Below, in pieces: positions 2,398-39,436 of a stretch of 47,305 nucleotides of DNA (position 1 is the first letter of the stretch; each line of letters opens with the position of its first letter). Source of the DNA: Paramacrobiotus metropolitanus (Eukaryota > Tardigrada > Eutardigrada > Parachela > Macrobiotidae). The notes beneath the pieces are model-generated. The model worked only from the letters and a program-made list of their open reading frames with translations. It made no database searches and was not told where the DNA came from. The DNA lies in the NCBI RefSeq assembly GCF_019649055.1, contig NW_026570550.1:1-47305 (forward strand), written 5' to 3'. Made by a program: the position numbers and the translations under genes.

Positions 2398-4342
2398 TTA
2401 TGGGAGCGGATCGTAGTCATCTGGTATGCCATCCGGAAACTCCGACTTTATCAGGTCATTCAAACTAAGAATTCTGACTTCCTCAGCGCTTTCTTCGTGA
2501 ACTAGATCATTTATTTCGGAATCCATCATATCCGGATCGGATTCTTCCCATGCACGTAATGGTGGCAAGAACTTGCACAAATTAAAAACCACCCTTACTT
2601 CGGTATCGATGCGTTGCAGATCACTGATGTAGAGCGGTCCGCGAATTTGATTGAACGTCTTAGCTCGGCCGATGGCATTTTCAATAACAATACGAACTCT
2701 TGCAATTTCTGCAGTATCTTTAAGCTTTTCACGGGACATGTTCTCATCTTTTCGAACGCTGGGAGGCACAATCCATTTAATACCTAGTTTTTGGGCTAAT
2801 TCAGTCATCTGGAAACCGCGATCAGCCAAAACCACATCACCGAAACCCAATTTCAGGAATAGGTTAGATGCTTTAACAATCGCGGGATCCGAAATGGAGC
2901 CTTGGTAAGGATGGGACAAAAAACACATATTTCCATCAGCCTCCGAGCCGACCAAATATTTTATGGTATAACTCTTTTTATAGTTAGACCAACATTTGCG
3001 AGCAGCGTCAGGATTCTTTGGCTTTTGAATTTTGATTTCGAATCCGTCAATAATCATGGAAATTTTAGGAAAGAGAGCGGCTACTTTCGGGGGCAAAGGA
3101 AGCGGATCTATGCCATCATAAGGGTATTTTCTGAAGATGTTTACCATCCTTTCATCCATTACAAGAAGCCAGCAATTATAATAACGTCCAATAGTTCGTG
3201 CATCTACCCCGAAAATGGCGGCCAACACTTCGTAAGTCATACCCGTTCGTAACTTCATCAACGTCAAAAAATACTGATTAAAACCATCAAGCGCCATCGG
3301 CGCTCCGCCACGTGATCTGTCTGGATAGGGTACTTCTCCTGTTTGCTTGGTGTAAAGCAACGTATCTAGAAAACCCTCATTTTTTCCTGCAAAGACGGTT
3401 TCGTACAAAGTCAACAAAACGAGATAGGACGGCAGCCCAGTGAGATTCTGGATGGCTTTATCGCTGTCGGCAAACGTTTCGGCGCGAAATTCTTGCCGGG
3501 TCAATCGTTTGGTCAGCGCTTGCACACTTGCATTTGCCTCTTGAACTTCCAACAACAGCTCACCAATTCTCGTATTCTAAAAAAACGAAAAGACAGTTAC
3601 CTGGAACAATCTTGGAAACTTGTAGCAATCGTAATCAGTTTTAAACCGATACAGCATCAGTAAGCTAAATAGAAGTATATCTTACAATACATCTTGCATT
3701 AAAGAAAGACGTTTTTATTTGTACGTTAGACCAACTTGCGCATATGCATGCACAAACGCACAATTAATCATTTTTTTGCTACTAGTCAGTACTTACTTTT
3801 TTAGCTTCCAAATAGCGCAGATCATTTTTCAGTTCAGTAATCTGTAGATCCTTTTGTTGGGACTCTTCCTGGAGACGTTTGAATGCATCTCGCAGTTGTT
3901 CGAGTTCGTCACGAAGCGCTTGAACATCCGCTGAACACACTTCCGTTTGCACACATGCCGCTAGTTTTCTTTTTTTCCGTGGCGGACCAGTGGAGATTTT
4001 GCCTGAGCGGTCTTTTGGGGTTGAACGTGAATGCGAAGGTTGACAGTTTGCTGGCTGAGAATTTACTGGTAGGCAGTTAAACTGCGATGGGATAGCCGTT
4101 TTCAGTAACAGCGCGCGCGTTGCGGGCTTTCCCTTTTTGGTTTTTGTCTGAAAATCAGATGGGAGAAAGTGAGTGCTGCAGACGCGGGATCCTGGACCAG
4201 GCTGCCAGCTGCTTTCACGTCGGATTCGATGCAGCCACGTTGAATAGCGCCAGTCGGTAGCTGACGGTAGTGTGAAAAAGGAAAGCCCTTCTGATCCCGG
4301 GCGGTTCGCGTAGTGCACGCACCGTGGAACACAGCATGTCAC
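2398..4342 (-). CDS. THAP-domain DDE transposase (two exons)
   Basis: Exon 1 (4342-3797) encodes an N-terminal THAP zinc finger: CCVPRC, then the W and R positions, then VCSTHFLPSDF, a C2CH pattern. A basic PRKKRKL stretch and a coiled coil follow. The donor GTAAGT (3796-3791) and the acceptor TTTTTTTAG (ending 3577) join in phase 0 to exon 2 (3576-2398), which continues the coiled coil into a DDE_4/Harbinger-like catalytic domain. The triad is visible as MIIDGFEI (first D), VVLADRGF (second D) and RIVIENAIGR (E). Total length is about 574 aa. The enzyme would bind the element ends through THAP and cut and join DNA. The first codon in the THAP frame is GTG (4342-4340); the frame upstream has no ATG before a TAG. 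Either the ATG has mutated or an upstream exon supplies it. Apart from this the coding sequence is open. Confidence 0.85.
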
Positions 4343-21311: not shown

Positions 21312-22844
21312 TTGACTATTAATCAAAACAATTTCCGAAATATTAAGGTCCGATGTTGCAACATTAATAGCATTTTTTCAAAAAAAGAAGTGGTTAAACA
21401 GTTTTGTTCTGAATCGGATGTTACAGCTTTGACGGAAAAATTGGACAAAGATATTTACACAGACAGTTTTTTTGCTGACCTCCGTAAATTTAACGTATTT
21501 CGCCGGTGGCGAAAATCATCGGACAGCCACGGTGGCGTTGCTTTAATTTTGTCGAAAAAACTAAAAAGTTTTAGACGTACAGACCTTGATAGAGAAGATC
21601 TTGAAATTCTGTTCGTAGAATCGCCTGTGTTGGATTGCTTATTCGGTGTTGTTTACATACGACCGTCAAAAAAAGCTGTGCTAATTCCTTTACTTGTTGA
21701 ATATTTGCAGGATTTTTCTGTTGAGTTACGTAATAAACTTGTTTTAATGGGTGACTTTAATTTGCCGGATATATGTTGGACTAGCATGAAAGCCCCTACC
21801 ACTGCGTCTCAATTGTTACTTGATTCTTTAAAAGAATTTAACTTTCGCCAGTTGATCGATTTTCCTACTAGAGACAGCAACATCCTTGATCTTTGTTTTA
21901 TTTCTACCCACCATTTGGTCACGGACGTGAATTGTGTGTCACCACCATCCGCGTCAAATGACCATTATGCCTTTCAGTTCCGCCTTTTTGTTAAGCGTCG
22001 TAAATTCGAATTTGCTTTTGCTGGAAATCGCTGGAATATATCCTCTGATAAGATTGCAGCCTTTCAAGGTGCCTTAGCCACAACCGAGTGGCAACACGTC
22101 TTAACGGACAGTGACCCGTCCGTTTTAGCGCTACAGCTGGAAAACAAAATTTTAGGTACAGCAAACCGTTTTTTTGTTTATGGTAAACCCACAGTGAAAA
22201 GAACAAAAAAATACACTGCATCAGTTCGAAAAGTGTTAAATAGTAGAAACAGGCTTTCCGTAAAATGCAACGTGAAACCTCAGCTGAAAAGAGAGAGTTT
22301 GTGAAAACGTTATGGAAATTTGAATGCCAAAAAGTAAATGCGCTTCTAAAATCTCATCGCCGAAATGCCATTCTTGATGTTGCAACAGCGACTCGAAATA
22401 ATCCGAAAAAGTTTTGGCAGTTTGTCAAACAGAGTGTCGACAAAAAAAGCCTCCCGCCCATTAAAACCCCTGAAGGTGTCACGCTTTTCTCTGATTCCGA
22501 TAAAGCAAATGTATTTAACAAAACTTTTCTCAGTTCTCAGAACGATTGCTCTTCGCGCTGCTCCGTTAGGTCATCAAAACCGAAGGACAGAGAAACTGTT
22601 TTCAGAATCTGTGAAAACGATGTGATAGCTGCTCTAGAAGACATGAAATTTTCTTCTTCTTCAGGACAGTTTAAAATGTCTAATTCTTTGTTGAAAGCTT
22701 CCGGTACATCAATTGTCGCACCACTTGTCACCTTGTTTAATGTTTGTGTTAAGTGTAATAGGTTTCCATCTCATTGGAAAACGTCTTACGTCACTCCCCT
22801 TCCCAAAACATCTGCCGATCAAACGGTAGTTAATAATCACCGCC
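21312..22844 (+). pseudogene. LINE ORF2, 5' part: endonuclease and start of reverse transcriptase
   Basis: The endonuclease domain is recognisable by CCNINSIFSKK, VTALTEKL (the catalytic Glu in TE), VLMGDFNLPDICW and SNDHYAF (the terminal SDH-like site). A one-base frameshift near 22255 moves the reading to a second frame (22265 on), which continues through the linker into the reverse-transcriptase start (HWKTSYVTPLPKTSADQTVVNNHR). The frame is then cut at 22844 by the 15.2-kb palindromic insertion. The first called codon is TTG; the true start is not visible. The copy is dead. Confidence 0.85.
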
Positions 22845-23270
22845 TGTAGCCGGCAAACTTGTTGGCCTGTTGACTGTTGGCGAGCCCGGCGGGAAAGTGG
22901 TTTTTCTCCCATAGATCTGCCGAACTGCACCCACACTTCTGCCGACCCGACCCTATGCATTGTCTATGGGAACTCCAATAGATCAGCCGAAGCGGCTCAA
23001 CAGTGTAACTTGACACTTCAACTGATCGTAAGCAACCATCGGCTGGGCTGTAGCAACAGATGAAGCTGCCTAGGTACACTTTATCGACAACAGCTTAATT
23101 AATGTCAGCTTAATTGTTGCCAATTAGGTGGGTATGCTTTTTTTGAATGCAGCAGCGGACAACCGGCATCATTCATGATCATTGCGAAACGTAATCAGTT
23201 ACTTGAATGTCGATACAAGTTAATATTATTCTCAATTTTATTTTCTGCTTATCTCAAAGACTATGTACGT
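22845..23270 (+). repeat. Left terminal segment of the giant element
   Basis: Inverted and about 99 percent identical to 37640-38044. It contains recognisable sub-blocks GTTGGCGAGCCCGG, ATAGATCTGCCGAACTGCAC, GTCGGGTCGGCAG-like and GGGAACTCCAATAGATC, which recur in diverged form inside both arms. Confidence 0.85.
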
Positions 23271-23440
23271 TTTTGTCTTAATTCTTGCCAATTAGCTGAG
23301 TATCCTAAATGGTAATGCAGGCACCGGATAATCGACATCATTCATGACCACTGCAAGACGTAATCAAATATTTGAATGTAGTTACAAGTTATTAATATCC
23401 GCAATTTTTGTTTTCTGTTGAGTCTCATAGACTATGTATG
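23105..23440 (+). repeat. Diverged tandem duplication in the left arm
   Basis: About 160 bp around 23110-23270 (GCCAATTAGGTGGGTATGC...CATCATTCATGATCA...GAATGTCGATACAAGTTA) is repeated with many changes at 23285-23440 (GCCAATTAGCTGAGTATCC...). The right arm shows only one copy, so the duplication is arm-specific. Confidence 0.65.
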
Positions 23441-24065
23441 TTACTTGTGTAAGCTTTGCCTTTGAGAACTTCACTTAAAATTTTATATGATATTAAAGTT
23501 AACACCGGGCTTTGTCAGGCTAAAATTTAGCCCTCCAGACTTTAAACTACTTTAGAAAACAACTTTTCCAGTAATAGGTCTGGCAAACTGCGTCAATAGC
23601 CCTGCCGACCCGACAATACGGGAACTCCAATACATCTGCCGAACGAGAACTACAGTGAAACTTGATATCACCGTCGTGCGCTAGCCGATATACTTGTGAC
23701 TGCTGAACGAGCGTGTGCGTTCTTGTCGAACATGACAATAGCTTTACTAGCGCGTGTGCTGCGGCATCTATAACTGCATCTATCAATAGCATGTGCAGCA
23801 ATTGACAGTTAGGAAGATCGCTGCAAATACCTTGAATAAGCATAAATAAGTATATTAATAGTAGTAATGATGGTTGACAATGAACTTCGTTTGCGTTGCA
23901 ATAAATATTTACATACAGTATTAACCCGTTCCAATTGGAATAACACTCCGCAGAAACGCTCGCCTGCAAGGATGAGACACTCAGCGCAATGAAAAGCGCG
24001 CGCTTCTCTCTGTTTAGTACCAGTAGTAATATGAGTGTCTCGACCGGCATTTAGATGTGGGACGC

Positions 24066-24540
24066 TGATAAGACTTTTTACATATAATTTAATGCAAAAA
24101 ACTTTTTACACATAATTTAATGCAAAAAACTTTTTACGCTTATTTTAATGCGGAAAACTTTTTCCGCCTATTTTACACCGAAAAAACTTCTTACACATAA
24201 TTTATTGCAAAAAAAACTTTTACACATAGTTTAATGCAAAAAACTTTTTGCTTATTTTAATGTAAAACTTTTTCCGCCCTATTTACACCGAAAAACTTTT
24301 ACACATAATTTAATGCAAAAAACTTTGTACACATAGTTTAATGAAAAAAACATTTTACGCTTATTTTTATTGCGAAATACTTTTTCCACCCTATTTTACA
24401 CCGAAAATTTATTTACGCATAATCTAATGCAAAAAACTTTTACGCCTATTTTAATGCTTAAACTTTTTCCGCCCTATATTACACCGAAAAACTTTTTCAC
24501 TTAATTTTAAGTTTAAAAACTTTGAACACGTAATTTAAAT
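24066..24540 (+). repeat. Minisatellite array 1, left arm
   Basis: About 16-17 units of roughly 28 bp built on CTTTTTACACATAATTTAATGCAAAAAA. Three unit types alternate (ACACATAATTTAATGCAAAA, ACGCTTATTTTAATGCGAAAA, CCGCCCTATTTTACACCGAAAA), suggesting a higher-order repeat of about 85 bp. Confidence 0.85.
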
Positions 24541-24784
24541 GTGTACATTTTAGAGAAACAGACGTATAGCGGTTACATTCGTAGGCATTACAATCTGTAA
24601 CAGCGATCGAGTAACTATTACCATTGCATTGAGTTTTTTTTCTCATTGATATGTGTCATTGATATACGGGTGAAAGGTCAAAGTCAATATAAGTGTCTCG
24701 ACCGGCATTTAGATGTGGGACGCTGATAAGAGCGTCCCGGGATATATTTTTAAGGGTTAATGTTCCCGGGATAAATTCCCGTGA

Positions 24785-25560
24785 TGTATTTCCAGCCCCT
24801 AAAATGTTAGAGGCATATTTCGAACCCCTAAAATTTTAGAGGCAGATTGCGAGCCCCTAAATAGAGGCATATCTCAATCCCCTAAAATGTTAGAGGCATA
24901 TTTCGAGCCCTTGAAATTTTGGAGGCACATTTTGAGCCACTAAAATTTTGGAGGCATATCTCGAACCCCTTAAATTATAGAGGCATATCTCGAGCCTCTA
25001 AAATTTTGGAGGTATATTTAAAACCCCTGAAATTTTAGAGGCACATTTCGAGCCCCTAAATTCATATTTCGAACCTTTAAAATTTTAGAGTCAGATCTCG
25101 AGCAACTAAATTTATGGAGGCATATTTAAAACCCCTAAAATTTTAGAGACTTATTTCGAACCCCTAAAATTTTAGAGACTTATTTCGAACCCCTAAAAAT
25201 CTAGAGTTATATTTTGAGCCCCTGTAATTTAAGAGGCATATTTCGTGAGCCCGTAACTTGGAAGCAGATTTGGTATTACAAGCCCTTGTAATTTTGTAGG
25301 CAGATTTCCAAGCACTAAAATTTTAATGGCAAGTTTTCATCCCTGGTAATTTTTCAGGCAGATTTTAGGCCCCCTTAGTTTTGGAGCATAGTTCGTTCCC
25401 CTGTAATTTCCGGTTCCTTAAATTTTATAAGCAAAATCAAGCCCTTGAAATTTTAAAGGCATGTTTCCGGCCGTATAAATTGGTATAGGCAAATTTAAGC
25501 CTTTATAAATTCAAAAAAAATGCTTTCGGCCACCAAATTTTTACGGGGCCTTATGAGACC
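24785..25560 (+). repeat. Minisatellite array 2, left arm
   Basis: About 27 units of roughly 28 bp with consensus CCCCTAAAATTTTAGAGGCATATTTCGAG. Each unit contains a small palindrome (CTAAAATTTTAG). Units decay toward the 3' end of the array. Confidence 0.85.
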
Positions 25561-25680
25561 CGGTAATTTCGTAGGCATTGCAATCTGTAACAGCGATCGA
25601 GTAACTATTACCATTGCATTGAGTTCTTTTTTTTTCATTGATATGTGTCATTGATATACGGGTGAAAGGTCAAAGTCGCT

Positions 25681-26349
25681 TAATTGTGTTTTAGTTGTAC
25701 GTACATCTGTTTGGTTATTGGTTGCTTTAACTTAAGCGTGCCGAAACTTGCTTATAAAAAGTAAGGTTCAATAAAATTGTGTGGTATATAATTTCGTCGT
25801 GGCTGGCGTAAAGTTGGTGCCTACAATTAGTAAACTGGTTTTCAGTGAGGCGTTTTTGAACGATAAAATGGCTGAGGTGCGAGGCCCTGTAATCTCGTAG
25901 GCATAATTCTGGCCCTTAAAAATTTTTTCTGGGCTTCTTTATGCCATTGTAATTTTGTTGGCATGTTTCGGGCTACCCAAATTTTTTTCATTCATTTTTT
26001 ATCCTTGTAAATTCAGAAGCGCATATCGGGCCCTGGAATTTCTGAGGGCATAATTTAGCCTCTAAAAATTAATAAAAACTCTGAGCTATTGAGAACTGCG
26101 CTTAAAACACCAAAAACTCTCATTAAGTTCAGTTCAGTTCAAACTTTTATTTTTTTCCATTTGGTCGCTTATGCCTGCGTCGGTTGAATATTCTAAAAAA
26201 TAAAGGAAAGTTCAAGGAAGTACCCGTTAGTACAGCAGCTAAACTTTAAGCACAATCTTTTACTTTTAGGCTTTTCACGCATGGGCTATTATTCCGAATG
26301 CAGCTATTCGAATTATTATTGATGAATTATTCCAATTATTCATGAGTGC
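25681..26349. other. Left-arm stretch before the spliced gene
   Basis: Starts with a few more decayed array-2-like units (around 25880-26060), then unique AT-rich sequence. A pyrimidine tract and AG at about 26260-26270 precede a short open frame (26271-26351) in a different frame from the spliced gene. It could be an upstream exon, but no in-frame junction was found. Confidence 0.4.
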
Positions 26350-26839
26350 ATGAAATTACGGGGCGGCCTGGTCAAAGGGACAGTCCAAATAGAAGTATTG
26401 GCTGCTACTGGATTTGAAAAAGTTCCGTGGGTGAAAATTAATAGTACATGCCGTTGTGAGAGTGTATCAACTTTCTTATAGCGTAAATCTCAACCAAGGA
26501 TAGCACGATTTTGCAATTATTATTAGATGTATTCTACGTATTACGAGTATACTATAGACACAAGAAAAGAAGAAGAAATCAGTGTTGCTTTGATGCAAGG
26601 TACCGCTGCTTGCGTTCAGAAAACGTTTGGTATCGGTAAGAAACTGGGTGAAGTGTATTATGCGCTGAAATGATAAACTGCGTAATTTTGCGTTTAACCT
26701 ATGTTAATTCTGAATAACTTAATAAAACTACTTGCAGAGCTTTCACTATCCTTATCTTGGCAACAGCCAAACTCTTCGTTTCGAAAGCGAAAACATCGAT
26801 GGCTCTGATATCATTCTAGTCGAAGGTAAAGACCTCTAA
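26350..26839 (+). CDS. Palindrome-arm spliced gene, left copy (three exons, 100 aa)
   Basis: Exon 1 26350-26455 (ATG start; GGLVKGTVQIEVLAATGFEK) ends at donor GTGAGAG. Exon 2 26558-26652 (KEEEISVALMQGTAACVQKT) follows acceptor TATAG. Exon 3 26738-26839 (FHYPYLGNSQTLRFESEN, then DIILVEGKDL and TAA) follows TTGCAG. Phases 1 and 0 match, giving exactly 303 bp with stop. A stronger-looking donor at 26636 (GTAAGA) would not keep the frame with exon 3. The chain looks like a compact, mixed hydrophobic/charged domain with an acidic C-terminus. I do not recognise a family. The same gene occurs inverted at 34057-34546 with a single amino-acid change among the positions compared, which supports it being real and recently duplicated or homogenised. 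Confidence 0.5.
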
Positions 26840-29552
26840 CTGATTAATTTTTGAAGAAAATCGGCTTTTTTTGTCTCAACTCCACACTGAAAAGCCGATT
26901 TTGTAAGAGTTTCTCTTACAATACTGCGTTAAACTTTCCCCGCGTTGAATACATTCGTTGCATATGATGATCTAAAATGTCTGGTATTTTGTCATTTATC
27001 GGCTACCTGTGGACTTAAGAATTTCGTTTTTTTTTCTCGGCCAAGCTATGTTCCATTAGTAATTTCTACATTAAGCCAGAGCGCCAGCGACCAAAAGTAA
27101 ACCAGCAAGATCCATGAAAGATGCTGATTGATAAGAAATTCGTCTATGACTGAGTCAGGACTAGCAGAAATTTGGTGCAGTAGTGCGGACGAGATGCTCA
27201 GGGCGCACGGTAGCAGCATTTTCTAACGTGGATTGCTTGTGGTTGGTATACTAACCCTTTTACGGTCGAAGTTTACTGTTCATAGGTCATCGCGCTAGCG
27301 GTGTACATTAACTGTGACACATTTTGTGCGGCAGTCCTTGGACTGAGCAGACTAATAAGAATCGCGGCTTGCATATGCTTGTGGAGATGTCCAACATACT
27401 GCAGGTAAAAAAAAAGCAAATAGCAAATAAAGCAAAGCTCACGATGATCATATAAATATAATAGTAACAAGCTACTAACATTACTACTACTAACAACTAA
27501 CATTAACATTTTGACGAATGCTAATAAAGTTGTACTAGTCCTAGCCAGTACCACAGCACCTTATGGCTTATTGCCTTATTCAACTGCATGATTATAAACA
27601 TTATATAGCCCCAAAACTGTTGCAGAATAGTTGCATAACTATGACAATTGTGTAACTGAACGTCGTTTGTTAAGTTAGAAAGCCGACAGCTTTGTAGTCG
27701 GGCTTTTTTGTGCCATTAAATTTATGTAGTTATTACACTACGTGCATTATTATGAAACTACATTTTTATTAAACTACGTTTATTAACCTTAAACAAATGT
27801 TGTAAGTTGCGTTTAAACCCATGGCTTGACCGTAAGCCATTGCTAGAATGCGTCAATATATACACAGTTCTGTTCTTTCTTGTTTTATCCAAGATTTCCA
27901 TTTTGTTTAAGTTCTTATATTTTTGATAACTGGCTGTCCCGATCGCTGTTCAACTGCAATGGGCATATATGTGCGTTATCCGAAATGTCGCACAAGTTAA
28001 AGCTGCGCTCACATTCGAAATAAGAGCGCAGCACTGACGCCTAAACTTGTCAAATAAGTTAATTGCACAACCTGTAAGTAACAAAAATTATCATAGCATA
28101 GATGGCAGTCCAATGCCTACTCTACAACGTTAAACGATTTTCTGAGCAGTTTATATTTCAGGGTTATTGGCTCGGGCGAGGCACTATCTAAAAATCTACT
28201 GTAACGATTCTTAGGGTGTTTCTTTTATTTAGTAGAGCAAAATCAAAACTATCGAAATATGCGGAGAATTGCTCTGACACAGAAGGCCTGATTCAGTTTG
28301 CCGTGCTCTCAATCATTTATTGCAGTTAGGCGTGTTTATTACCTGAATTATGTGATTAATCTTATCCGCATTACTATATTTTTGTTGTCATAATATCATA
28401 TTGCCATATCACAATTTAAAACCTGCCTCAAGATTAGACCTAAACAATAATAAGCCTACATACGATGATTATCAGTTAATATTAAGATAAAATAATATTT
28501 AAAAATAGCTGTATCTTTTTACGTTAGAAGCAACATAATAACCTATAACGATCCAACGCAATAATAAAGGGACCGTGATTTTTTTATTCCGTTAAACCCG
28601 GGGTTTAAGTAATTAAACTTTGATTGTCTAAGCTCTTTTATAAAATTCCGAAATCTGTTCAATCGCGTTGGTGCAGATTGATGAAATAAATTATCGCACG
28701 CCCTGTCTAGTATGCCGAAGGAACCAACAGCGGTGGCGCAAACGAAAAGTAGATAGTTTTATCTGTTTTAGAATTTGCAGGTTGTACTGACGGGAGTGGA
28801 TTAACTTAACATGTCTTTAAGGTCTTTAAGAATTTTCATTCGCGGGCATGCAAGCGCGGCAAACCCGCATGGCACTGCATGATGTATAAAGTAGCTTTTG
28901 AATAGTCATTTGAACTAAAACGTGGGCTCTCTTGACAGTTAAAGAATAAACTTGCTGAACGTGGAGGAGTTGAATTAACGATGCACATCACAGTGTCATG
29001 TTGACAAAATTTAACTGTTACATGATTTTGTTTTATAACCAATTGGAACAATCATGTAAACATAAAAACGACTTTCGCGATGTTACAAGCATCACACACA
29101 TTGTAAATAAGTTGTTTTTTTTGGCTGACTTTCCATCTAAATCGCAATTTTTTTCAAAATCTACCTGCTGAAAAATTGCCGCGGCATTTAATGTGAAATA
29201 CTTCTCTTTTATGATTTTGTCTTTGAGAGACACAAAATGTTAGCCAATACACAAGTAACTAACGCCAACGCAGGTGAAAGGAATTGTTTGTGTTTTTTTA
29301 GCGTATGTCAGCAATTGTCAGCAAAACTTGCAAAAAAAATATGTATCGCAAATCTCATCAGATAAGCATGGTAAATTGTTTCACAAACAAAAATGAATCG
29401 CGTTTCAGCACATTTTCTAGTATTGGGAAATTAAAATAAATAAAAGCCGTTTACTCAATAGAACTCCGCCTCATTTTAAAAGTCTTATATATAGCATGGT
29501 GTTGAGGATAAAAATATTGTATCGTCGACTCAAGCTGGCACTATTTTATACA
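26840..29552. other. Left-arm stretch without a supported gene
   Basis: AT-rich, unique within the arm. It has two hairpins: AAAATCGGCTTTT / AAAAGCCGATTTT at 26857-26869 and 26890-26902, 18 bp after the stop of the spliced gene, and a short GC stem followed by six T at about 27680-27709. Minus-strand frames of 62-93 codons (27273-27554) and 66-71 codons (28836-29233) are conserved in the other arm but have weak coding character and mostly non-ATG starts. Confidence 0.4.
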
Positions 29553-29807
29553 CTACGCTAAATCCCTGCTGTACAGCATTATGCGCCGTGCAGGCGCGCA
29601 CTGAGCTGCTTGACAAATATCATACAACCGAACCGGACGGTTCCTAGCAATTGCTGCTAAAATACCGCCTACTATAACCCCACCCACCCCTCTCGAGATC
29701 CCTAAATTTTCAAAAATTAAATCCACACCGTTGGATTTGTCGTACAAATGAATAAAATAGTTAAGGCCGAATTTAGGAATTCGCTGTTCCCCAAGATCGA
29801 AGACCAT
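29553..29807 (-). CDS. 84-aa ORF with glycine-rich hydrophobic segment, left-arm copy
   Basis: An ATG-started frame identical in protein sequence to 31110-31364. It has a charged start (MVFDLGEQRIPKF), a stretch GVGGVIVGGILAAIARNRP at about residues 41-59 that could be a membrane segment, and a Cys/Arg-containing tail. No family is recognised. It lies at the inner end of the arm, reading away from the loop. A chance ORF is possible because identity between the arms is high everywhere here. Confidence 0.35.
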   Translation of the reverse strand: MVFDLGEQRIPKFGLNYFIHLYDKSNGVDLIFENLGISRGVGGVIVGGILAAIARNRPVRLYDICQAAQCAPARRIMLYSRDLA

Positions 29808-29975
29808 GAGCGGTCACCCAAACAACACTGGGAAATCGGTCTGGTCTGGGGAATTTCCAAAAATCTCGGTTGTCGTGTTTTGACAAAACTTATATTTTTT
29901 TGACGTCAGAAATTGCAATTTTTTGTCGTGTTTGACAATTCTGACGGTAGTCGGTTTCAACCACCCGGGTGGTTG

Positions 29976-30945
29976 ACCAGTTGAGATGCATCATAACGAC
30001 CGTGTGCGCATCCGCAGCGCGGAGCGCCGCAGATTTTGCGCACCTACACACGCAAGTGTGTAGGTGGACACATTGTTTGGCCTGAAGGCCTGGATATACT
30101 TTTGCAGTTGTGAACATTCATTTTTTCAAGGTACGCAGTGCTCTTCGTCAACTGGTCGTTATGATGCATAAAATAATAAAAAAATGAGGCATGTGATTAC
30201 CCATAAACCTGCAGTTTTTAAATAGTGATTTTTTTAATTTTTAAAGCGCTCGTGCGCATTTTGAATCAACGAAAACCGTCTAGTGCTGGTAATAAGAGTC
30301 CTTCTCAACATATGTTTTTTTACCACCCGTTTTTAAAAAGTTACTTATTTTTACTTACTTTTGACGGTTTACTGGAGCGTGTACTTATTATTTAATGTTT
30401 TAGAGCATTTTTACATACTAATTAGAGTGAATTTTTTGATTAAATTTAAGGCAGAATTAACAATTTTGAATAGCGTTGACTTTATAGTGCGCCTAAACAG
30501 TACAGACGAGATTTTCCTTCGTATGCTCTAAAAGTATTTGTTAATTTTATCGAAATAAATAGAATACTATTCGTATATACAGGAGTTTGCTTTAGGGTGG
30601 CAGGCTGGTACCTCAATATAACGCACACTAACTTGACCGGCTAGCCGCAGCAATTGACGCGCCAATTAGTTCGGCTGATATAAAGCTCGTACAGCTTCAG
30701 TTTAATTACGCTAAAAAAATGGCCTTAGTGAATCAATTAGTAAACGACTTTCACTTAATTTGCACATAATGTTAATATTCATTTACGTTTAATATACTTA
30801 AACTGGCAGCACGTTTACTTACTTTTACATACTGAATCGTCGACTCAAGTTAGCGCTATTGTTTCATACTGCGCCAAGCCCATGCTATACAGCCCCAAAC
30901 GCCATGCAGGTGTGCAGTGAACTGCTTGAACAGCATCATACAATC
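29976..30945. other. Central loop of the giant palindrome
   Basis: The roughly 970-bp spacer between the two arms. The left edge is the palindrome CAACCACCCGGGTGGTTG (29958-29975), the right edge its partial copy at 30944-30959. The left 200 bp holds nested hairpins. The middle is AT-rich without an ORF. The right end (30833-30945) is a diverged direct copy of 29516-29640 in the left arm. Confidence 0.75.
29986..30169. repeat. Nested hairpin cluster at the loop apex
   Basis: The outer 16-bp inverted repeat ATGCATCATAACGACC (29986-30001) pairs exactly with 30154-30169. Inside it GTGCGCA (30004-30010) pairs with TGCGCAC (30037-30043). Immediately next is an 11-bp perfect stem CACCTACACAC / GTGTGTAGGTG (30041-30051 and 30056-30066) closed by GCAA, a GNRA-type tetraloop. 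The two inner stems share bases 30041-30043, so they would compete there. It could act as folded RNA or as a DNA cruciform. Confidence 0.7.
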
Positions 30946-31109
30946 AACCCGGGTGGTTGAAACCGACTACCGTCAAAATTGTCAAACACGACAAAAAATT
31001 GCAATTTCTGACGTCAAAAAAATATAAGTTTTGTCAAAACACGACAACCGAGATTTTTGGAAATTCCCCAGACCAGACCGATTTCCCAGTGTTGTTTGGG
31101 TGACCGCTC

Positions 31110-31364
31110 ATGGTCTTCGATCTTGGGGAACAGCGAATTCCTAAATTCGGCCTTAACTATTTTATTCATTTGTACGACAAATCCAACGGTGTGGATTTAA
31201 TTTTTGAAAATTTAGGGATCTCGAGAGGGGTGGGTGGGGTTATAGTAGGCGGTATTTTAGCAGCAATTGCTAGGAACCGTCCGGTTCGGTTGTATGATAT
31301 TTGTCAAGCAGCTCAGTGCGCGCCTGCACGGCGCATAATGCTGTACAGCAGGGATTTAGCGTAG
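31110..31364 (+). CDS. 84-aa ORF with glycine-rich hydrophobic segment, right-arm copy
   Basis: Mirror copy of 29553-29807, with the same predicted protein, including the ATG. The same caveats apply: conservation may reflect arm homogenisation rather than selection on the protein. Confidence 0.35.
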   Translation: MVFDLGEQRIPKFGLNYFIHLYDKSNGVDLIFENLGISRGVGGVIVGGILAAIARNRPVRLYDICQAAQCAPARRIMLYSRDLA

Positions 31365-34056
31365 TGTATAAAATAGTGCCAGCTTGAGTCGACGATACAA
31401 TATTTTTATCCTCAACACCATGCTATATATAAGACTTTTAAAATGAGGCGGAGTTCTATTGAGTAAACGGCTTTTATTTATTTTAATTTCCCAATACTAG
31501 AAAATGTGCTGAAACGCGATTCATTTTTGTTTGTGAAACAATTAACCATGCTTATCTGATGAGATTTGCGATACATATTTTTTTTGCAAGTTTTGCTGAC
31601 ATACGCTAAAAAAACACAAACAATTCCTTTCACCTGCGTTGGCGTTAGTTACTTGTGTATTGGCTAACATTTTGTGTCTCTCAAAGACAAAATCATAAAA
31701 GAGAAGTATTTCACATTAAATGCCGCGGCAATTTTTCAGCAGGTAGATTTTGAAAAAAATTGCGATTTAGATGGAAAGTCAGCCAAAAAAAACAACTTAT
31801 TTACAATGTGTGTGATGCTTGTAACATCGCGAAAGTCGTTTTTATGTTTACATGATTGTTCCAATTGGTTATAAAACAAAATCATGTAACAGTTAAATTT
31901 TGTCAACATGACACTGTGATGTGCATCGTTAATTCAACTCCTCCACGTTCAGCAAGTTTATTCTTTAACTGTCAAGAGAGCCCACGTTTTAGTTCAAATG
32001 ACTATTCAAAAGCTACTTTATACATCATGCAGTGCCATGCGGGTTTGCCGCGCTTGCATGCCCGCGAATGAAAATTCTTAAAGACCTTAAAGACATGTTA
32101 AGTTAATCCACTCCCGTCAGTACAACCTGCAAATTCTAAAACAGATAAAACTATCTACTTTTCGTTTGCGCCACCGCTGTTGGTTCCTTCGGCATACTAG
32201 ACAGGGCGTGCGATATTTTATTTCATCAATCTACACCAACGCGATTGAACAGATTTCGGAATTTCAAAGAAGAGCTTAGACAATCAAAGTTTAATTACTT
32301 AAACCCCGGGTTTAACGGAATAAAAAAATCACGGTCCCTTTATTATGGCGTTGGATCGTGATAGGTTATTATGTTGCTTCTAACGTAAAAAGATACAGCT
32401 ATTTTTAAATATTATTTTATCTTAATATTAACTAATAATCATCGTATGTAGGCTTATTATTGTTTAGGTCTAATCTTGAGGCAGGTTTTAAATTGTGATA
32501 TGGCAATATGATATTATGACAACAAAAATATAGTAATGCGGATAAGATTAATCACATAATTCAGGTAATAAACACGCCTAACTGCAATAAATGATTGAGA
32601 GCACGGCAAACTGAATCAGGCCTTCTGTGTCAGAGCAATTCTCCATATTTCGATAGTTTTGATTTTTGCTCTACTAAATAAAAGAAACACCCTAAGAATC
32701 GTTACAGTAGATTTTTAGATAGTGCCTCGCCCGAGCCAATAACCCTGAAATATAAACTGCTCAGAAAATCGTTTAACGTTGTAGAGTAGGCATTGGACTG
32801 CCATCTATGCTATGATAATTTTTGTTACTTACAGGTTGTGCAATTAACTTATTTGACAAGTTTGTATGTCAGTGCTGCGCTCTTATTTCGAATCTGAGCG
32901 CAGCTTTAACTTGTGCGACATTTCGGATAACGCACATATAAGCCCATTGCAGTTGAACAGCGATCGGGACAGCCAGTTATCAAAAATATAAGAACTTAAA
33001 CAAAATGGAAATCTTGGATAAAACAAGAAAGAACAGAACTGTGTATATATTGACGCATTCTAGCAATGGCTTACGGTCAAGCCATGGGTTTAAACGCAAC
33101 TTACAACATTTGTTTAAGGTTAATAAACGTAGTTTAATAAAAATGTAGTTTCATAATAATGCACGTAGTGTAATAACTACATAAATTTAATGGCACAAAA
33201 AAGCCCGACTACAAAAAGCTGTCGGCTTTCTAACTTAACAAACGACGTTCAGTTACACAATTGTCATAGTTATGCAACTATTCTGCAACAGTTTTGGGGC
33301 TATATAATGTTTATAATCATGCAGTTGAATAAGGCAATAAGCCATAAGGTGCTGTGGTACTGGCTAGGACTAGTACAACTTTATTAGCATTCGTCAAAAT
33401 GTTAGTGTTAGTTGTTAGTAGTAGTAATGTTAGTAGCTTGTTACTATTATATTTATATGATCATCGTGAGCTTTGCTTTATTTGCTATTTGCTTTTTTTT
33501 TACCTGCAGTATGTTGGACATCTCCACAAGCATATGCAAGCCGCGATTCTTATTAGTCTGCTCAGTCCAAGGACTGCCGCACAAAATGTCATGATTAATG
33601 TACACGCTAGCGCGATGACCTATGAACAGTAAACTTCGACCGTAAAAGGGTTAGTATACCAACCACAAGCAATCCACGTTAGAAAATGCTGCTACCGTGC
33701 GCCTGAGCATCTCGTCACACTACTGCAAATTTCTGCTAGTCCTGACTCAGTCATAGACGAATTTCTTATCAATCAGCATCTTTCATGGATCTTGCTGGTT
33801 TACTTTTGGTCGCTGGCGCTCTGGCTTAATGTAGAAATTACTAATGGAACATAGCTTGGCCGAGAAAAAAACGAAATTCTTAAGTCCACAGGTAGCCGAT
33901 AAATGACAAAATACCAGACATTTTAGATCATCATATGCAACAGAATGTATTCAACGCGGGAAAGTTTAACGCAGTATTGTAAGAGAAACTCTTACAAAAT
34001 CGGCTTTTCAGTGTGGAGTTGAGACAAAAAAGCCGATTTTCTTCAAAATTAATCAG
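31365..34056. other. Right-arm stretch without a supported gene
   Basis: Inverted counterpart of 26840-29552, with scattered single-base differences and small indels (for example around 32880, 33590 and 33960). It contains the mirrored frames 31674-31874, 31856-32071 and 33354-33632, which are not called as genes. Confidence 0.4.
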
Positions 34057-34546
34057 TTAGAGGTCTTTACCTTCGACTAGAATGATATCAGAGCCATCGA
34101 TGTTTTCGCTTTCGAAACGAAGAGTTTGGCTGTTGCCAAGATAAGGATAGTGAAAGCTCTGCAAGTAGTTTTATTAAGTTATTCAGAATTAACATAGGTT
34201 AAACGCAAAATTACGCAGTTTATCATTTCAGCGCATAATACACTTCACCCAGTTTCTTACCGATACCAAACGTTTTCTGAACGCAAGCAGCGGTACCTTG
34301 CATCAAAGCAACAATGATTTCTTCTTCTTTTCCTGTGTCTATAGTATACTCGTAATACGTAGAATACATCTAATTATAATTGCAAAATCGTGCTATCCTT
34401 GGTTGAGATTTACGCTATAAGAAAGTTGATACACTCTCACAACGGCATGTACTATTAATTTTCACCCACGGAACTTTTTCAAATCCAGTAGCAGCCAATA
34501 CTTCTATTTGGACTGTCCCTTTGACCAGGCCGCCCCGTAATTTCAT
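34057..34546 (-). CDS. Palindrome-arm spliced gene, right copy (three exons, 100 aa)
   Basis: Exact mirror of 26350-26839: ATG at 34546-34544, the same splice sites and the stop at 34059-34057. The only change I found in the exons turns AGT into ATT (Ser to Ile) in the sequence after KEEEI. Both copies read toward the palindrome centre. If expressed, opposite-strand transcripts from the two copies could form long double-stranded RNA. Confidence 0.5.
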
Positions 34547-35219
34547 GCACTCATGAATAATTGGAATAATTCATCAATAATAATTCGAATAGCTGCATTC
34601 GGAATAATAGCCCATGCGTGAAAAGCCTAAAAGTAAAAGATTGTGCTTAAAGTTTAGCTGCTGTACTAACGGGTACTTTCTTGAGCTTTCCTTTATTTTT
34701 TAGAATATTCAACCGACGCAGGCATAAGCGTCCAAATGGAAAAAAATAAAAGTTTGAACTGAACTGAACTTAATGAGAGTTTTTGGTGTTTTAAGCGCAG
34801 TTCTCAATAGCTCAGAGTTTTTATTAATTTTTAGAGGCTAAATTATGCCCTCAGAAATTCCAGGGCCCGATATGCGCTTCTGAATTTACAAGGATAAAAA
34901 ATGAAAGAAAAAAATTTGGGTAGCCCGAAACATGCCAACAAAATTACAATGGCATAAAGAAGCCCAGAAAAAAATTTTTAAGGGCCAGAATTATGCCTAC
35001 GAGATTACAGGGCCTCGCACCTCAGCCATTTTATCGTTCAAAAACGCCTCACTGAAAACCAGTTTACTAATTGTAGGCACCAACTTTACGCCAGCCACGA
35101 CGAAATTATATACCACACAATTTTATTGAACCTTACTTTTTATAAGCAAGTTTGGGCACGCTTAAGTTAAAGCAACCAATAACCAAACAGATGTACGTAC
35201 AACTAAAACACAATTAAGC
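34547..35219. other. Right-arm stretch outside the spliced gene
   Basis: Mirror of 25681-26349. A 65-codon frame (34932-35129) runs through decayed satellite units and is not considered a gene. Confidence 0.4.
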
Positions 35220-35334
35220 GACTTTGACCTTTCACCCGTATATCAATGACACATATCAATGAAAAAAAAAGAACTCAATGCAATGGTAATAGTTACTCGA
35301 TCGCTGTTACAGATTGCAATGCCTACGAAATTAC

Positions 35335-36145
35335 CGGGTCTCATAAGGCCCCGTAAAAATTTGGTGGCCGAAAGCATTTTTTTGAATTTATAAAGGAAAC
35401 TTAAATTTGCCTATACCAATTTATACGGCCGGAAACATGCCTTTAAAATTTCAAGGGCTTGATTTTGCTTATAAAATTTAAGGAACCGGAAATTACAGGG
35501 GAACGAACTATGCTCCAAAACTAAGGGGGCATAAAATCTGCCTGAAAAATTACCAGGGATGAAAACTTGCCATTAAAATTTTAGTGCCTGGAAATCTGCC
35601 TACAAAATTACAAGGGCTTGTAATACCAAATCTGCTTCCAAATTACGGGCACACGAAATACGCCTCTTAAATTACAGGGGCTCAAAATATAACTCTAGAT
35701 TTTTAGGGGTTCGAAATAAGTCTCTAAAATTTTAGGGGTTCGAAATAAGTCTCTAAAATTTTAGGGGTTTTAAATATGCCTCCATAAATTTAGTTGCTCG
35801 AGATCTGACTCTAAAATTTTAAAGGTTCGAAATATGCCTCTAAAGTTTTAGGGGCTCGAAATATGAATTTAGGGGCTCGAAATCTGCCTCTAAAATTTCA
35901 GGGGTTTTAAATATACCTCCAAAGTTTTAGAGGCTCGAGATATGCCTATATAATTTAAGGGGTTCGAAATATGCCTCCAAACTTTTAGTGGCTCAAAATG
36001 TGCCTCCAAAATTTCAAGGGCTCGAAATATGCCTCTAACATTTTACGGGATTGAGATATGCCTCTATTTAGGGGCTCGCAATCTGCCTCTAAAATTTTAG
36101 GGGTTCGAAATATGCCTCCAACATTTTAGGGGCTGGAAATACATC
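35335..36145 (-). repeat. Minisatellite array 2, right arm
   Basis: Inverse of 24785-25560, with the same roughly 28-bp units (CTAAAATTTTAGGGGTTCGAAATATGCCT). Small differences in single units distinguish the two arms. Confidence 0.85.
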
Positions 36146-36384
36146 ACGGGAATTTATCCCGGGGACGTTAACCCTTAAAAATATATCCCGGGACGCTCTT
36201 ATCAGCGTCCCACATCTAAATGCCGGTCGAGACACTTATATTGACTTTGACCTTTCACCCGTATATCAATGACACATATCAATGAGAAAAAAAACTAAAT
36301 GCAATGGTAATAGTTACTCGATCGCTGTTACAGATTGTAATGCCTACGAATGTAACCGCTATACGTCTGTTTCTCTGAAATGTA

Positions 36385-36857
36385 CACATTTAAATTACGT
36401 GTTCAAAGTTTTTAAACTTAAAATTAAGTGAAAAAGTTTTTCGGTGTAATATAGGGCGGACAAAGTTTAAGCATTAAAATAGGCGTAAAAGTTTTTTGCA
36501 TTAGATTATGCATAAATAGATTTTCGGTGTAAAATAGGGTGGAAAAAGTTTTTCGCATTAAAAATAAGCGTAAAAAGTTTTTTTCATTAAACTATGTGTA
36601 CAAAGTTTTTTGCATTAAATTATGTGTAAAAAGTTTTTCGGTGTAAATAGGGCGGAAAAAGTTTTTACATTAAAATAAGCGTAAAAAGTTTTTTTGCATT
36701 AAATTATGTGTAAAAGTTTTTTTTGCAATAAATTATGTGTAAGAAGTTTTTTCGGTGTAAAATAGGCGGAAAAAGTTTTCCGCATTAAAATAAGCGTAAA
36801 AAGGTTTTTGCATTAAATTATGTGTAAAAAGTTTTTTGCATTAAATTATATGAAAAA
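36385..36857 (-). repeat. Minisatellite array 1, right arm
   Basis: Inverse of 24066-24540, with the same three alternating unit types. Confidence 0.85.
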
Positions 36858-36924
36858 AGTCTTATCAGCGGCCCACATCTAAATGCCGGTCGAGACACTC
36901 ATATTACTACTAGTACCAGTGTAA

Positions 36925-37150
36925 TATGGCTAGGTAGCTGCATCTCTGCTGCAGCCAGGCCGTGCTACTGCCGGCTTGCGCTCAACAGGATATCAAGTTT
37001 CACTGTTGTGCCTCTTCTGATCTATTGGAGTTCCCATAAGCAAAATGGTGTCGGGTCGGCAAAGTGTGGGTGCAGTTCGGCAGATCTATGGGAGATAACC
37101 GCTTTTCCGCCAAGCTCGCCAAACATGTTGGCGAGCCCGGTTTACTATAC
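36925..37150 (+). repeat. Internal diverged copy of the element terminus
   Basis: Direct, diverged copy of the right terminal segment 37810-38040: AGCTGCATCT, GATCTATTGGAGTTCCCATA, GTCGGGTCGGCA, GTGGGTGCAGTTCGGCAGATC and GGCGAGCCCGG occur in the same order. A more decayed third copy lies at about 37400-37540, and its inverse at about 23560-23690. The element's ends are thus modular and partly multiplied. Confidence 0.75.
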
Positions 37151-37639
37151 TTTCGTTGAACGTATCAGGATAAAAAGTTTATCATGAGTTACCGGTATAG
37201 TATAAATATACTTAATCAAGTCATTTGCGGCGACTTTTCTTAATGCCTATGTGCTGCATACGCCCTTGACTGATGCAGTTTATAGATATTAATTAATACG
37301 CAGTCTTGGACAAGTGCCCATGCTTAAATCCTACAATAAGTTTATTGCACTATCTGACAAAAGCGAATAGGCTCGTTCAGCAGTGATTGGTATACCGGCT
37401 AGCGCACGACTGTAATAATTATCAACTTTCGTTGGTGTTCTCCTTCGGCAGATCCACTGAAGTTCCCATAGACAATGTGTATTGTCGGATCTCAGGACTA
37501 CTGGCGCAGTTCGGCCGACCTATTGTTGGTAAAATTGTTTCCGAAAACACTTTAAAGTCTTGAGGGTTTAATTTCGGCCTTGCAAAAACCCAATAGTAAT
37601 TTTTATATCATACAAGAATTTAAAATAAATAATTTTTAA

Positions 37640-38044
37640 AAGATAGACAAAAATTGCGAATAATATTAACTTGTAACGACATTCAAGTAACTGATTACGT
37701 TTCGCAATGATCATAAATGATGCCAGTTGTCCGCTGCTGCATTCAAAAAAAGCATACCCACCTAACTGGCAACAATTAAGCTGACATTAATTAAGCTGTT
37801 GTCGATAAAGTGTACCTAGGCAGCTGCATCTGTTGCTACAGCCCAGCCGATGGTTGCTTACGATCAGTTGAAGTGTCAAGTTACACTGTTGAGCCGCTTC
37901 GGCTGATCTATTGGAGTTCCCATAGACAATGCATAGGGTCGGGTCGGCAGAAGTGTGGGTGCAGTTCGGCAGATCTATGGGAGAAAAACCACTTTCCTGC
38001 CGGGCTCGCCAACAGTCAACAGGCCAACAAGTTTGCCGGCTACA
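37640..38044 (-). repeat. Right terminal segment of the giant element
   Basis: Inverse of 22845-23270. A long plus-strand frame that begins at 37810 inside this segment runs across the insertion junction into the LINE reverse transcriptase; the part before 38045 is element DNA, not protein-coding in origin. Confidence 0.85.
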
Positions 38045-38050
38045 ACTGCC

Positions 38051-39436
38051 CTATCGCAATTTTGCATCCTATTTCCAAAGTTTTTGAAAGGTGTATTGCA
38101 AATTATTTCAGGTCTTTTCTGGAAAGTAATGGTTTGTTAAGTGATAGCCAGTTTGGATTCCGTGCTAAGCGAAACACGGAACTGCAGTGTCTAGTTTTCA
38201 CAAAATTTGTTGAAGATTTTATTGACAGTGGATTTGAGGTGGACGCGGTAATGCTGGATTGCTCAAAGGCATTTGCTCGTGTTGATCACAAATCCCTGCT
38301 TTCGACGTTAGAATTACTTGGTATTGATCCCGACGTTGTGGGTCTGTTAGATAACCATCAGACCGGTCGCCAACAGATTGTGGTGGTAAATGGTTCGTTT
38401 TCTAAAAGCGGTATAGTTACGAGCGGAGTGCCACAAGGTTCAGTGTTAGGTCGTATCCTGTTTATTTGCGAAATTAACGGATTAACGATTGTTTTATTTA
38501 ATGGTAGCAGAATTTTTATTTTTGCGGATGATGTGTTTTTGTGCAGACCTATAATATCAGGTGACGACTGCGTAAAACTACAGGAAGATATTGATGCCGT
38601 TTTTAAAGCCGCAGCTGCCAAACGGTTGACCTTTAACCCGAAGAAGTCTGTGCATATGCGTTTCTCAAAAAAACGAAATTTAACTGACATACATAAATAT
38701 TTGCTGAATAATACCGAAATTGAAAATCGTTTCGTAAACAAATATTTAGGATTGCTGGTAGACCGGAAACTGCGGTGGAGTGAGCATACCAGTAATTTAT
38801 ACACCAGGATTCGAAAGCGTATTGGTTACATGTTGTCGCTGTTCGATCATTATGATTCCGCAGCACTTATCTATTTATTTATAGCACTGATTTTTCCTCT
38901 TCTGGAGTACTGCAGTCCAGTGGTAAAACCTTTCCTTAAAACGCAAGAGAAGATCTTGAGATATGTGTTTTGAAATTTTTAAAAAGACTACGTCTGGGAA
39001 GCGCACGTAATAATTATTGTGGCCGACTTCATGAGGTAAACTGGGACTGCGTTGAATTACGTCGGATTAAAACCTCTTTGTTTGTTGCCTATAAGCTACT
39101 ATTCGGCATTATACCTTTCGGCAACTGTTTTTCACTAGTTATGAGTCAGTTACTGCCGCCAATACTGTTGCAGGTAACACCCGAAATGCAAACCGGATGT
39201 CGGGCCATCCATTCCCGATTCAAGCTGCGAATACCACTTTTTGCGAAACCGAAGTGCCAGCCAGTGAAGACTCGTTCTCATGGAGGATTACCAAAATCGG
39301 GAATGACCTCGATTTGGACGCATCATCCTATCGCTCCCTACATGTGTTTCAAGCTGCACTGGAAAGCGTTTCATGGAAGGAGATCGCCTCTGTTAAAGAC
39401 CACCTTGACACGCTTAATAAGCTTGACCTTTGTTGA
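38051..39436 (+). pseudogene. LINE ORF2, 3' part: reverse transcriptase and C-terminal tail
   Basis: Continues the frame interrupted at 22844 (HPISKVFERCI). Reverse-transcriptase motifs in order are GFRAKRNTE, VMLDCSKAFARVDHKSL (first catalytic Asp), TSGVPQGSVLG, FIFADDVFL (the (F/Y)ADD core), FNPKKSVHM and YLGLLVDRKLRW. A stop at 38971 ends this frame. Reading continues one frame over (FLKRLRL...VNWDCVELRRIKTSLFVAYKL), then shifts again near 39197 to a tail typical of CR1/jockey ORF2 (SFSWRITKIGNDLDLD...VFQAALE), ending at 39436. All catalytic residues remain, but the frameshifts make it inactive. Confidence 0.9.

Follow-up and report, generated by a model that had tools for sequence, protein, structure and literature searches.

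Is a long palindrome with matching ends and a target-site duplication necessarily one transposon? This question is raised by a contig of the tardigrade Paramacrobiotus metropolitanus (NW_026570550.1; C330 in our numbering), which we analysed over its entire length of 47,305 bp (the window) as part of a 169.8-Mb genome. In this contig a long interspersed nuclear element (LINE) is broken by 15.2 kb of largely palindromic DNA at positions 22845–38044, which a sequence-only reading had described as a single palindromic transposable element. The ends, the flanks and the restored LINE frame given in that reading are borne out by our analysis, but the single-element reading is not. The structure is genuine and was misread as one element; it consists of two nested elements, and the palindrome among them is unusually large. 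Overall, the data are best explained by two successive insertions, which we consider likely: a 2.3-kb transposon entered the LINE and a 12.9-kb near-palindrome then entered the transposon.

The insertion in the LINE is a nested pair

The LINE, which has endonuclease and reverse-transcriptase domains, spans approximately 21.3 to 39 kb and is broken at 22844/38045. Its 5' side (21312–22844, plus strand) carries the endonuclease domain (Pfam Exo_endo_phos_2 on the open reading frame at 21312–22304) and the start of the reverse transcriptase. The remainder of the reverse transcriptase lies on the 3' side (38045 to about 39500, the far end being approximate; plus strand; Pfam RVT_1 on the open reading frame at 37810–38973). 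Between the two sides the termini TGTAGCCGG...CCGGCTACA are present at 22845 and 38044 as reported, and they are flanked by ACCGCC (22839–22844) and ACTGCC (38045–38050), the second of which begins the 3' side. Comparison of these flanks showed that five of the six bases are the same and that the mismatch is a C/T difference at a CpG; the 6-bp target-site duplication also holds. When the flanks are joined at one hexamer, the open frame carries on as ...NNHRPIAIL..., which we take to be a reverse-transcriptase motif. We compared 360 bases of the joined flanks with the genome and obtained 14 matches. Two of them are the halves of the window itself; each of the remaining 12 crosses the junction, with identities of 67–93% and the best matches on contigs C105 (93%) and C4 (90%). 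The window therefore holds a genuine insertion within the LINE and not a local inversion, as the earlier reading had maintained.

That reading had also described two continuous arms of 7.1 kb. By contrast, we found that the arm homology comes in three parts: 395 bp at 98.2% identity, then approximately 730–780 bp in which the two sides are unlike, then 5.95 kb at approximately 99%. The inner homology begins sharply at GTAC on both sides. This break is the boundary of two elements, a 2.3-kb transposon outside and a 12.9-kb palindrome within. The outer 395 bp are the terminal inverted repeats of the transposon (22845–23239, plus strand; 37650–38044, minus strand; 98% complementary). Its left piece (22845–24020, plus strand; 1,176 bp including one GTAC) and its right piece (36917–38044, plus strand; 1,128 bp) together make a copy of 2,304 bp, which aligns with its best match, the sister copy L009, at 89.6% over 2,092 columns.

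The junction of these two pieces is continuous in sister copies. The 120 bases around the join align across it with L009 (92.5% over 107 bp) and L010 (88.8% over 80 bp), and the join is also spanned at 72–76% by L017, L018, L025 and L069, among others; some of the matches to the join cover one side only and some of the loci overlap. L009 holds ...TATAGTACCAGTGTAATATGG... at the corresponding place, uninterrupted. The join sits in a block that is common to many family members near their ends; the palindrome lies in the right subterminal region of the outer copy. Because the joined pieces align through the junction to sister copies, the outer element is an ordinary 2.3-kb member that was later interrupted by a piece of 12,892 bp. 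Insertion as one unit, as claimed in the sequence-only reading, is thus not supported: the TG...CA ends and the 6-bp duplication belong to the 2.3-kb outer element, whereas the palindrome has its own boundaries and its own GTAC repeat.

The history that we propose begins with a non-autonomous DNA transposon of 2.3 kb, a member of a dispersed TGTAG...CTACA family, which inserted into the reverse-transcriptase region of the LINE with duplication of a 6-bp site containing a central CG. The 12.9-kb near-palindrome that now lies in the transposon's right subterminal region, with GTAC on both sides, was inserted afterwards. Both insertions are shown by the data. The idea of one 15.2-kb foldback transposon that arrived in a single insertion, through a retroviral-type integrase acting in trans, is in keeping with the matching outer ends, the 6-bp duplication and the LINE that is continuous on both sides. 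However, it is very unlikely, given that the outer arm homology stops after 395 bp, to resume at a sharp edge some 780 bp further inward, and that the outer pieces form a normal family member when joined. An assembly artefact, in which one arm was turned into a fold-back chimera, seems more improbable still. The entire contig is just 47,305 bp and palindromes often break assemblies, but the arms differ at 56 bases and in 68 gap columns, and both edges meet the outer transposon at the same GTAC. More generally, the nested pair warns against taking matching ends with a clean target duplication as proof that all of the intervening sequence moved together.

The inner palindrome and its origin

The inner insertion (24021–36912; 12,892 bp) is made up of a left arm of 5,950 bp (24021–29970, plus strand), a right arm (30947–36912, minus strand) and, between them, a loop of 976 bp (29971–30946) that agrees with the 1 kb reported earlier. 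Comparison of the arms gave 56 substitutions in 5,924 aligned bases (0.95%) in addition to the 68 gap columns, and the differences are denser in the outer 1.2 kb, where tandem repeats with units of 28 and 29 bp lie. Tandem Repeats Finder placed these repeats near the left end at 24073–25245 (plus strand; 28-bp units at 24073–24468, 29-bp units at 24787–25245) and, correspondingly, near the right end at 35654–36860 (minus strand; 29-bp units at 35654–36141, 28-bp units at 36471–36860). In having long inverted repeats with internal tandem repeats, the inner piece resembles a foldback element. The left arm and loop fully enclose no open reading frame of at least 100 amino acids, and the right arm has none of at least 120 amino acids. 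The Ulp1, PHD and MULE proteins that we tried against the inner palindrome had no match at E ≤ 1e-4, and no Rfam family in the window reached its gathering score.

Both arms also contain two dispersed repeats. The shorter one (26569–26730) has many genomic copies at 80–88% identity and is the same in the other arm at 161 of 162 bases. The second (29513–29829) has distant matches at 70–83% on contigs C80 and C25 and is the same in the other arm at all 317 bases. Both probably predate the doubling of the arm, unless they were later copied from arm to arm. For the inner piece we consider a non-autonomous foldback-type element the most likely identity. Because both repeats sit at the same place in both arms, its long arms with their terminal tandem repeats probably arose when a sequence in which the two repeats were already present underwent inverted duplication. 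A palindrome with 5.95-kb arms in a long assembly offers a rare view of how foldback arms grow: the shared repeats suggest the doubling of normal sequence and the edges preserve the junctions. Separately, a 310-bp stretch of the inner arm (25568–25877) also occurs on contigs C53 (98%) and C280 (92%) and partly on C244 (94%), and it recurs in part at 24578–24685.

The junctions of the inner piece are marked by GTAC at 24017–24020 on the left and 36913–36916 on the right, and the shared repeat extends at most to TAGTAC (24015–24020 and 36911–36916). With a 4-bp GTAC duplication the inner ends are in register, CAGTAGTAATATGAG and TAGTAGTAATATGAG, which fits a foldback transposon. Against this, the likeness of the flanks extends past GTAC (TAGTACCAGTAGTAATATG on the left, TAGTACCAGTGTAATATG on the right), and a plain 4-bp duplication does not account for the resulting imperfect direct repeat of 18–19 bp. 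In addition, a search of the genome with the interior (25500–30946; 40 of 200 candidates scored) gave short pieces but no second long copy, so that the mobility of the inner piece is putative. The direct repeat, TAGTACCAGT(A)GTAATATG, is present on both sides of the inner piece as 19 nt on the left (24015–24033) and 18 nt on the right (36911–36928), both on the plus strand, with one indel of a single base between them. The match after GTAC has a score of 11. Among 1,394 GTAC sites in the analysed sequence, counting overlapping loci separately, four reach this score and the rest score 6 or less. The four are probably the site of the inner insertion and its relatives, and the likeness beyond GTAC is likely not due to chance.

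These data raise the possibility that the palindrome is not a transposon but formed where it now lies, through inverted duplication. By this route a single-armed sequence would have inserted into the outer copy and left the 18–19-bp direct repeat as a longer initial duplication; a broken end would later have folded back close to the loop and copied the arm in the outward direction before being rejoined at the palindromic tetramer GTAC. The length of the direct repeat, the lack of a second long copy of the interior among the candidates scored and the dispersed repeats, which suggest that the arm is older than its doubling, all favour this alternative, and we place it only somewhat below an even chance. 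On the other hand, it calls for two events together with a suitable microhomology. In addition, both ends are sharp and mirror each other, and foldback transposons typically carry tandem repeats in their arms, as is the case here. The direct repeat also fits insertion into a site that resembled the inner piece's own end, which we regard as slightly more likely than doubling in place. A foldback-type element remains our preferred reading of the inner piece.

Large foldback elements are known from Arabidopsis (FARE). The sequence-only reading had stated that foldbacks are usually much smaller than the structure in the window, but this is not always so. The longest Galileo copy of Drosophila willistoni is 9,021 bp, with arms of 4,246 and 4,680 bp (PMC4168063). 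This copy is the nearest precedent that we found for the inner palindrome. Like the inner piece, this copy is described as near-palindromic, with tandem repeats and fragments of foreign transposons in both arms; it has no transposase (PMC4168063), and none was identified in the inner piece. The Galileo target, GTANTAC, is close to the TAGTAC of the inner piece. The two sides of the inner piece have no more than TAGTAC in common and differ at the seventh base (T/C). Galileo makes duplications of 7 bp (or 8 bp), as against 4 bp in register (at most 6) here. With 5.95 kb, the arms of the inner piece are also longer, and they leave a loop of 976 bp between them. As a comparison, the arms of Galileo in D. 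mojavensis reach approximately 1.26 kb (PMC3573991). Tetris, another foldback element, is likewise non-autonomous, with long inverted repeats and a foldback structure, but its duplications are 8–10 bp in length whereas the inner piece is flanked by GTAC (PMC4079207). No foldback with longer arms was found in the literature covered, which left most subscription journals outside, and this is no proof of a record.

The outer family and its putative transposase

The ends TGTAGCC...GGCTACA together with a 6-bp duplication mark out a dispersed family. A search with the terminal 401 bases gave at least 49 matches in the genome (40 of 105 candidates scored). A 28-base end pattern found 67 ends genome-wide and none with the reversed control pattern, and these ends form approximately 23 facing pairs when counted by eye. 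We examined 15 of the pairs, including the window; the pairs left out are C1 (twice), C22, C47, C73, C79, C94:9059 and C365. The hexamers on the two sides agree perfectly in 11 pairs, at five of six bases in three (the window, L012 and L021) and at three of six in one (C95), so that sister copies share both the ends and the 6-bp duplication, as the sequence-only reading had expected. The copy on C298, for instance, has CACGTG on both sides. With C95 excluded, the target follows N-R-CG-Y-N, with R-CG-Y in 12 of 14 hexamers and the central CG in 13 of 14. A preference for T and A is also seen at the positions two bases beyond the hexamer (19 of 28 when symmetrised, with one misplaced site, that of C298, included). 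The 13 other copies measured range in length from 0.8 to 10 kb and have symmetrical arms of approximately 0.2 to 1.0 kb; the window, with a symmetrical arm of 6.8 kb, is an outlier among them.

The 18-kb pair of ends on C95 was considered as an autonomous copy and rejected, since its outer hexamers do not match and direct repeats resembling the long terminal repeats (LTRs) of a retrotransposon lie between the two ends. These repeats are 358 bp long and 97.8% identical (L071:819–1176 and C95:129227–129584), and a protease motif was seen by eye, without a Pfam call.

We then looked for genes in members of the family. The copy L018, which has the perfect duplication CGCGCC, contains a Ulp1-like exon followed in order by a PHD-like exon. 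A copy on C43, of which the right end alone was found, contains both exons at 99–100% identity to L018. Ulp1 remnants occur in three further copies (L011, L013 and L026), relatives with both exons are present at C78 and C326, and there are further Ulp1 exons elsewhere. On C43 the exons form an array (L073:147–962, L061:1–645, L061:1297–2277 and L061:2363–2647) of several Ulp1-like domains, some of them without catalytic residues by eye, ending in a PHD-like finger; exons related to this array also occur on C78, C58, C19 and C11. Three domains of the array were read, and two of them keep their catalytic residues by eye. The upstream exons resemble further Ulp1 domains, although Pfam C48 was seen in neither L073:147–962 nor L061:1–645. 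By eye, the former retains H, D, Q and C within the motifs where they are expected, and the latter does not. In single comparisons, these two exons are 21% identical (E 2e-8) and L073 is 23% identical to the Ulp1 exon of C78 (E 2e-6). Six Ulp1 loci, on C43, C19 (twice), C58, C78 and C11, have the L061 exon linked to them, and in five of the six it matches twice. We propose that the outer family may have been moved by a cut-and-paste transposase whose gene ends in Ulp1- and PHD-like domains, an arrangement that would be comparable to that of Ginger1 and Mutator transposases, with a catalytic part that was not found.

Several results weigh against this proposal. Pfam C48 rises above its cut-off in the C78 relative only (L070; 22.4 against 20.7) and stays below it in L018 itself, C43 and C326. 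The PHD assignment rests on weak matches and on inspection by eye, and the C95 pair departs from the 6-bp rule. Searches with MULE (68 of 68 candidates scored), rva_4 (60 of 60) and rve (150 of 1,154) brought out no catalytic domain next to the Ulp1 loci, and among the rve candidates scored no retroviral-type integrase could be tied to the outer family. MULE matched at 39 places, all of them more than 15 kb from any family end and any Ulp1 locus. For rve, the nearest matches among those scored were one on C284, at 8.4 kb from a single family end, and one on the other strand, at 10.4 kb from the Ulp1 locus of C11. No match of rva_4, which we take to mark integrases of the GingerRoot/IS3EU type, lay on contigs of Ulp1 loci. 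The Ulp1 exon of C78, compared with a large protein database, had 404 candidates, none at E ≤ 0.001. A SWIM-like gene in L015 was also considered as the family transposase and rejected, since it is part of another element nested in that copy, one that has ends of its own and a duplication of 9 bp. This element (L015:2188–5291, on C114) has GGCTATATATGAGTAGCC ends and the duplication CATGAATCA and is probably of Mutator type; the SWIM-like zinc finger of its gene is below the Pfam cut-off.

Polintons have AG...CT ends. The outer family shares a 6-bp duplication with them but has TG...CA ends instead. Ginger1 is described as having TGTNR ends, a CCGG/CCGT target with a 4-bp duplication, and a transposase with a C-terminal Ulp1 or OTU domain and sometimes a PHD finger (PMC2836005). 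The TGTAG ends of the outer family fit TGTNR, and both have inverted repeats that measure between tens and hundreds of bases and a target centred on CG (PMC2836005). The C-terminal Ulp1 domain of Ginger1, with PHD in one listed family (PMC2836005), has its counterpart in the Ulp1- and PHD-like exons of L018 and C43. The duplications differ, being 6-bp NRCGYN in the outer family and 4-bp CCGG/CCGT in Ginger1 (PMC2836005), and Ginger1 has a Gypsy-like integrase whereas rve was tied to no locus of the outer family among the candidates scored. Together, these comparisons are suggestive of kinship with Ginger1 but do not show it. GingerRoot/IS3EU elements also make 6-bp duplications, and GingerRoot occasionally has TG..CA ends, but complete IS3EU families always have TA..TA ends (PMC10045372); the silence of rva_4 on the contigs of the family's Ulp1 loci is a further difference. 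Dada makes 6-bp duplications at GCG-containing targets, but it is located in small RNA genes and is without terminal inverted repeats (PMC3706591), and we rejected it for the latter reason.

It is also possible, if rather unlikely, that the outer family is of Mutator type rather than Ginger type. Ulp1 domains occur in Mutator transposases too, and most foldback elements are thought to be Mutator elements (PMC2836005, PMC4079207, PMC10045372). The usual Mutator duplication is 8–10 bp as against 6 bp here, although the range given for the wider IS256/MuDR group is 4–10 bp, which includes 6 (PMC10045372). When 9-bp flanks were compared, from one to five of the nine bases matched (the misplaced C298 row excluded), so that the duplications are not the usual 9 bp. 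The absence of MULE near the family speaks against this alternative as well, but the same search missed the Mutator-type gene of L015, which makes its silence weak. The element nested in L015, with its 9-bp duplication and SWIM-like finger, has other ends than the outer family.

Given its 6-bp duplications centred on CG and its Ulp1-like gene, the outer family offers a way into a transposon lineage of which little is known. A bolder interpretation joins both elements. The outer family would be a new cut-and-paste lineage with 6-bp duplications, a palindromic T-N-N-R-C-G-Y-N-N-A target and a Ulp1-like array followed by a PHD-like finger, and the inner piece perhaps the longest-armed foldback described, caught after an inverted duplication at GTAC microhomology. 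We consider this combination doubtful and put it forward as speculation.

Other genes in the window

Two further regions of the window, both to the left of the LINE, hold open reading frames with recognisable domains. On the minus strand at 2398–4342 a DDE_Tnp_4 transposase adjoins an open reading frame with a THAP domain, a pair that is like an element of ISL2EU or Harbinger type. On the plus strand, the open reading frame at 776–2125 has a YqaJ-like recombinase domain; ahead of this domain is a CxC...CxH stretch, SWIM-like by eye.

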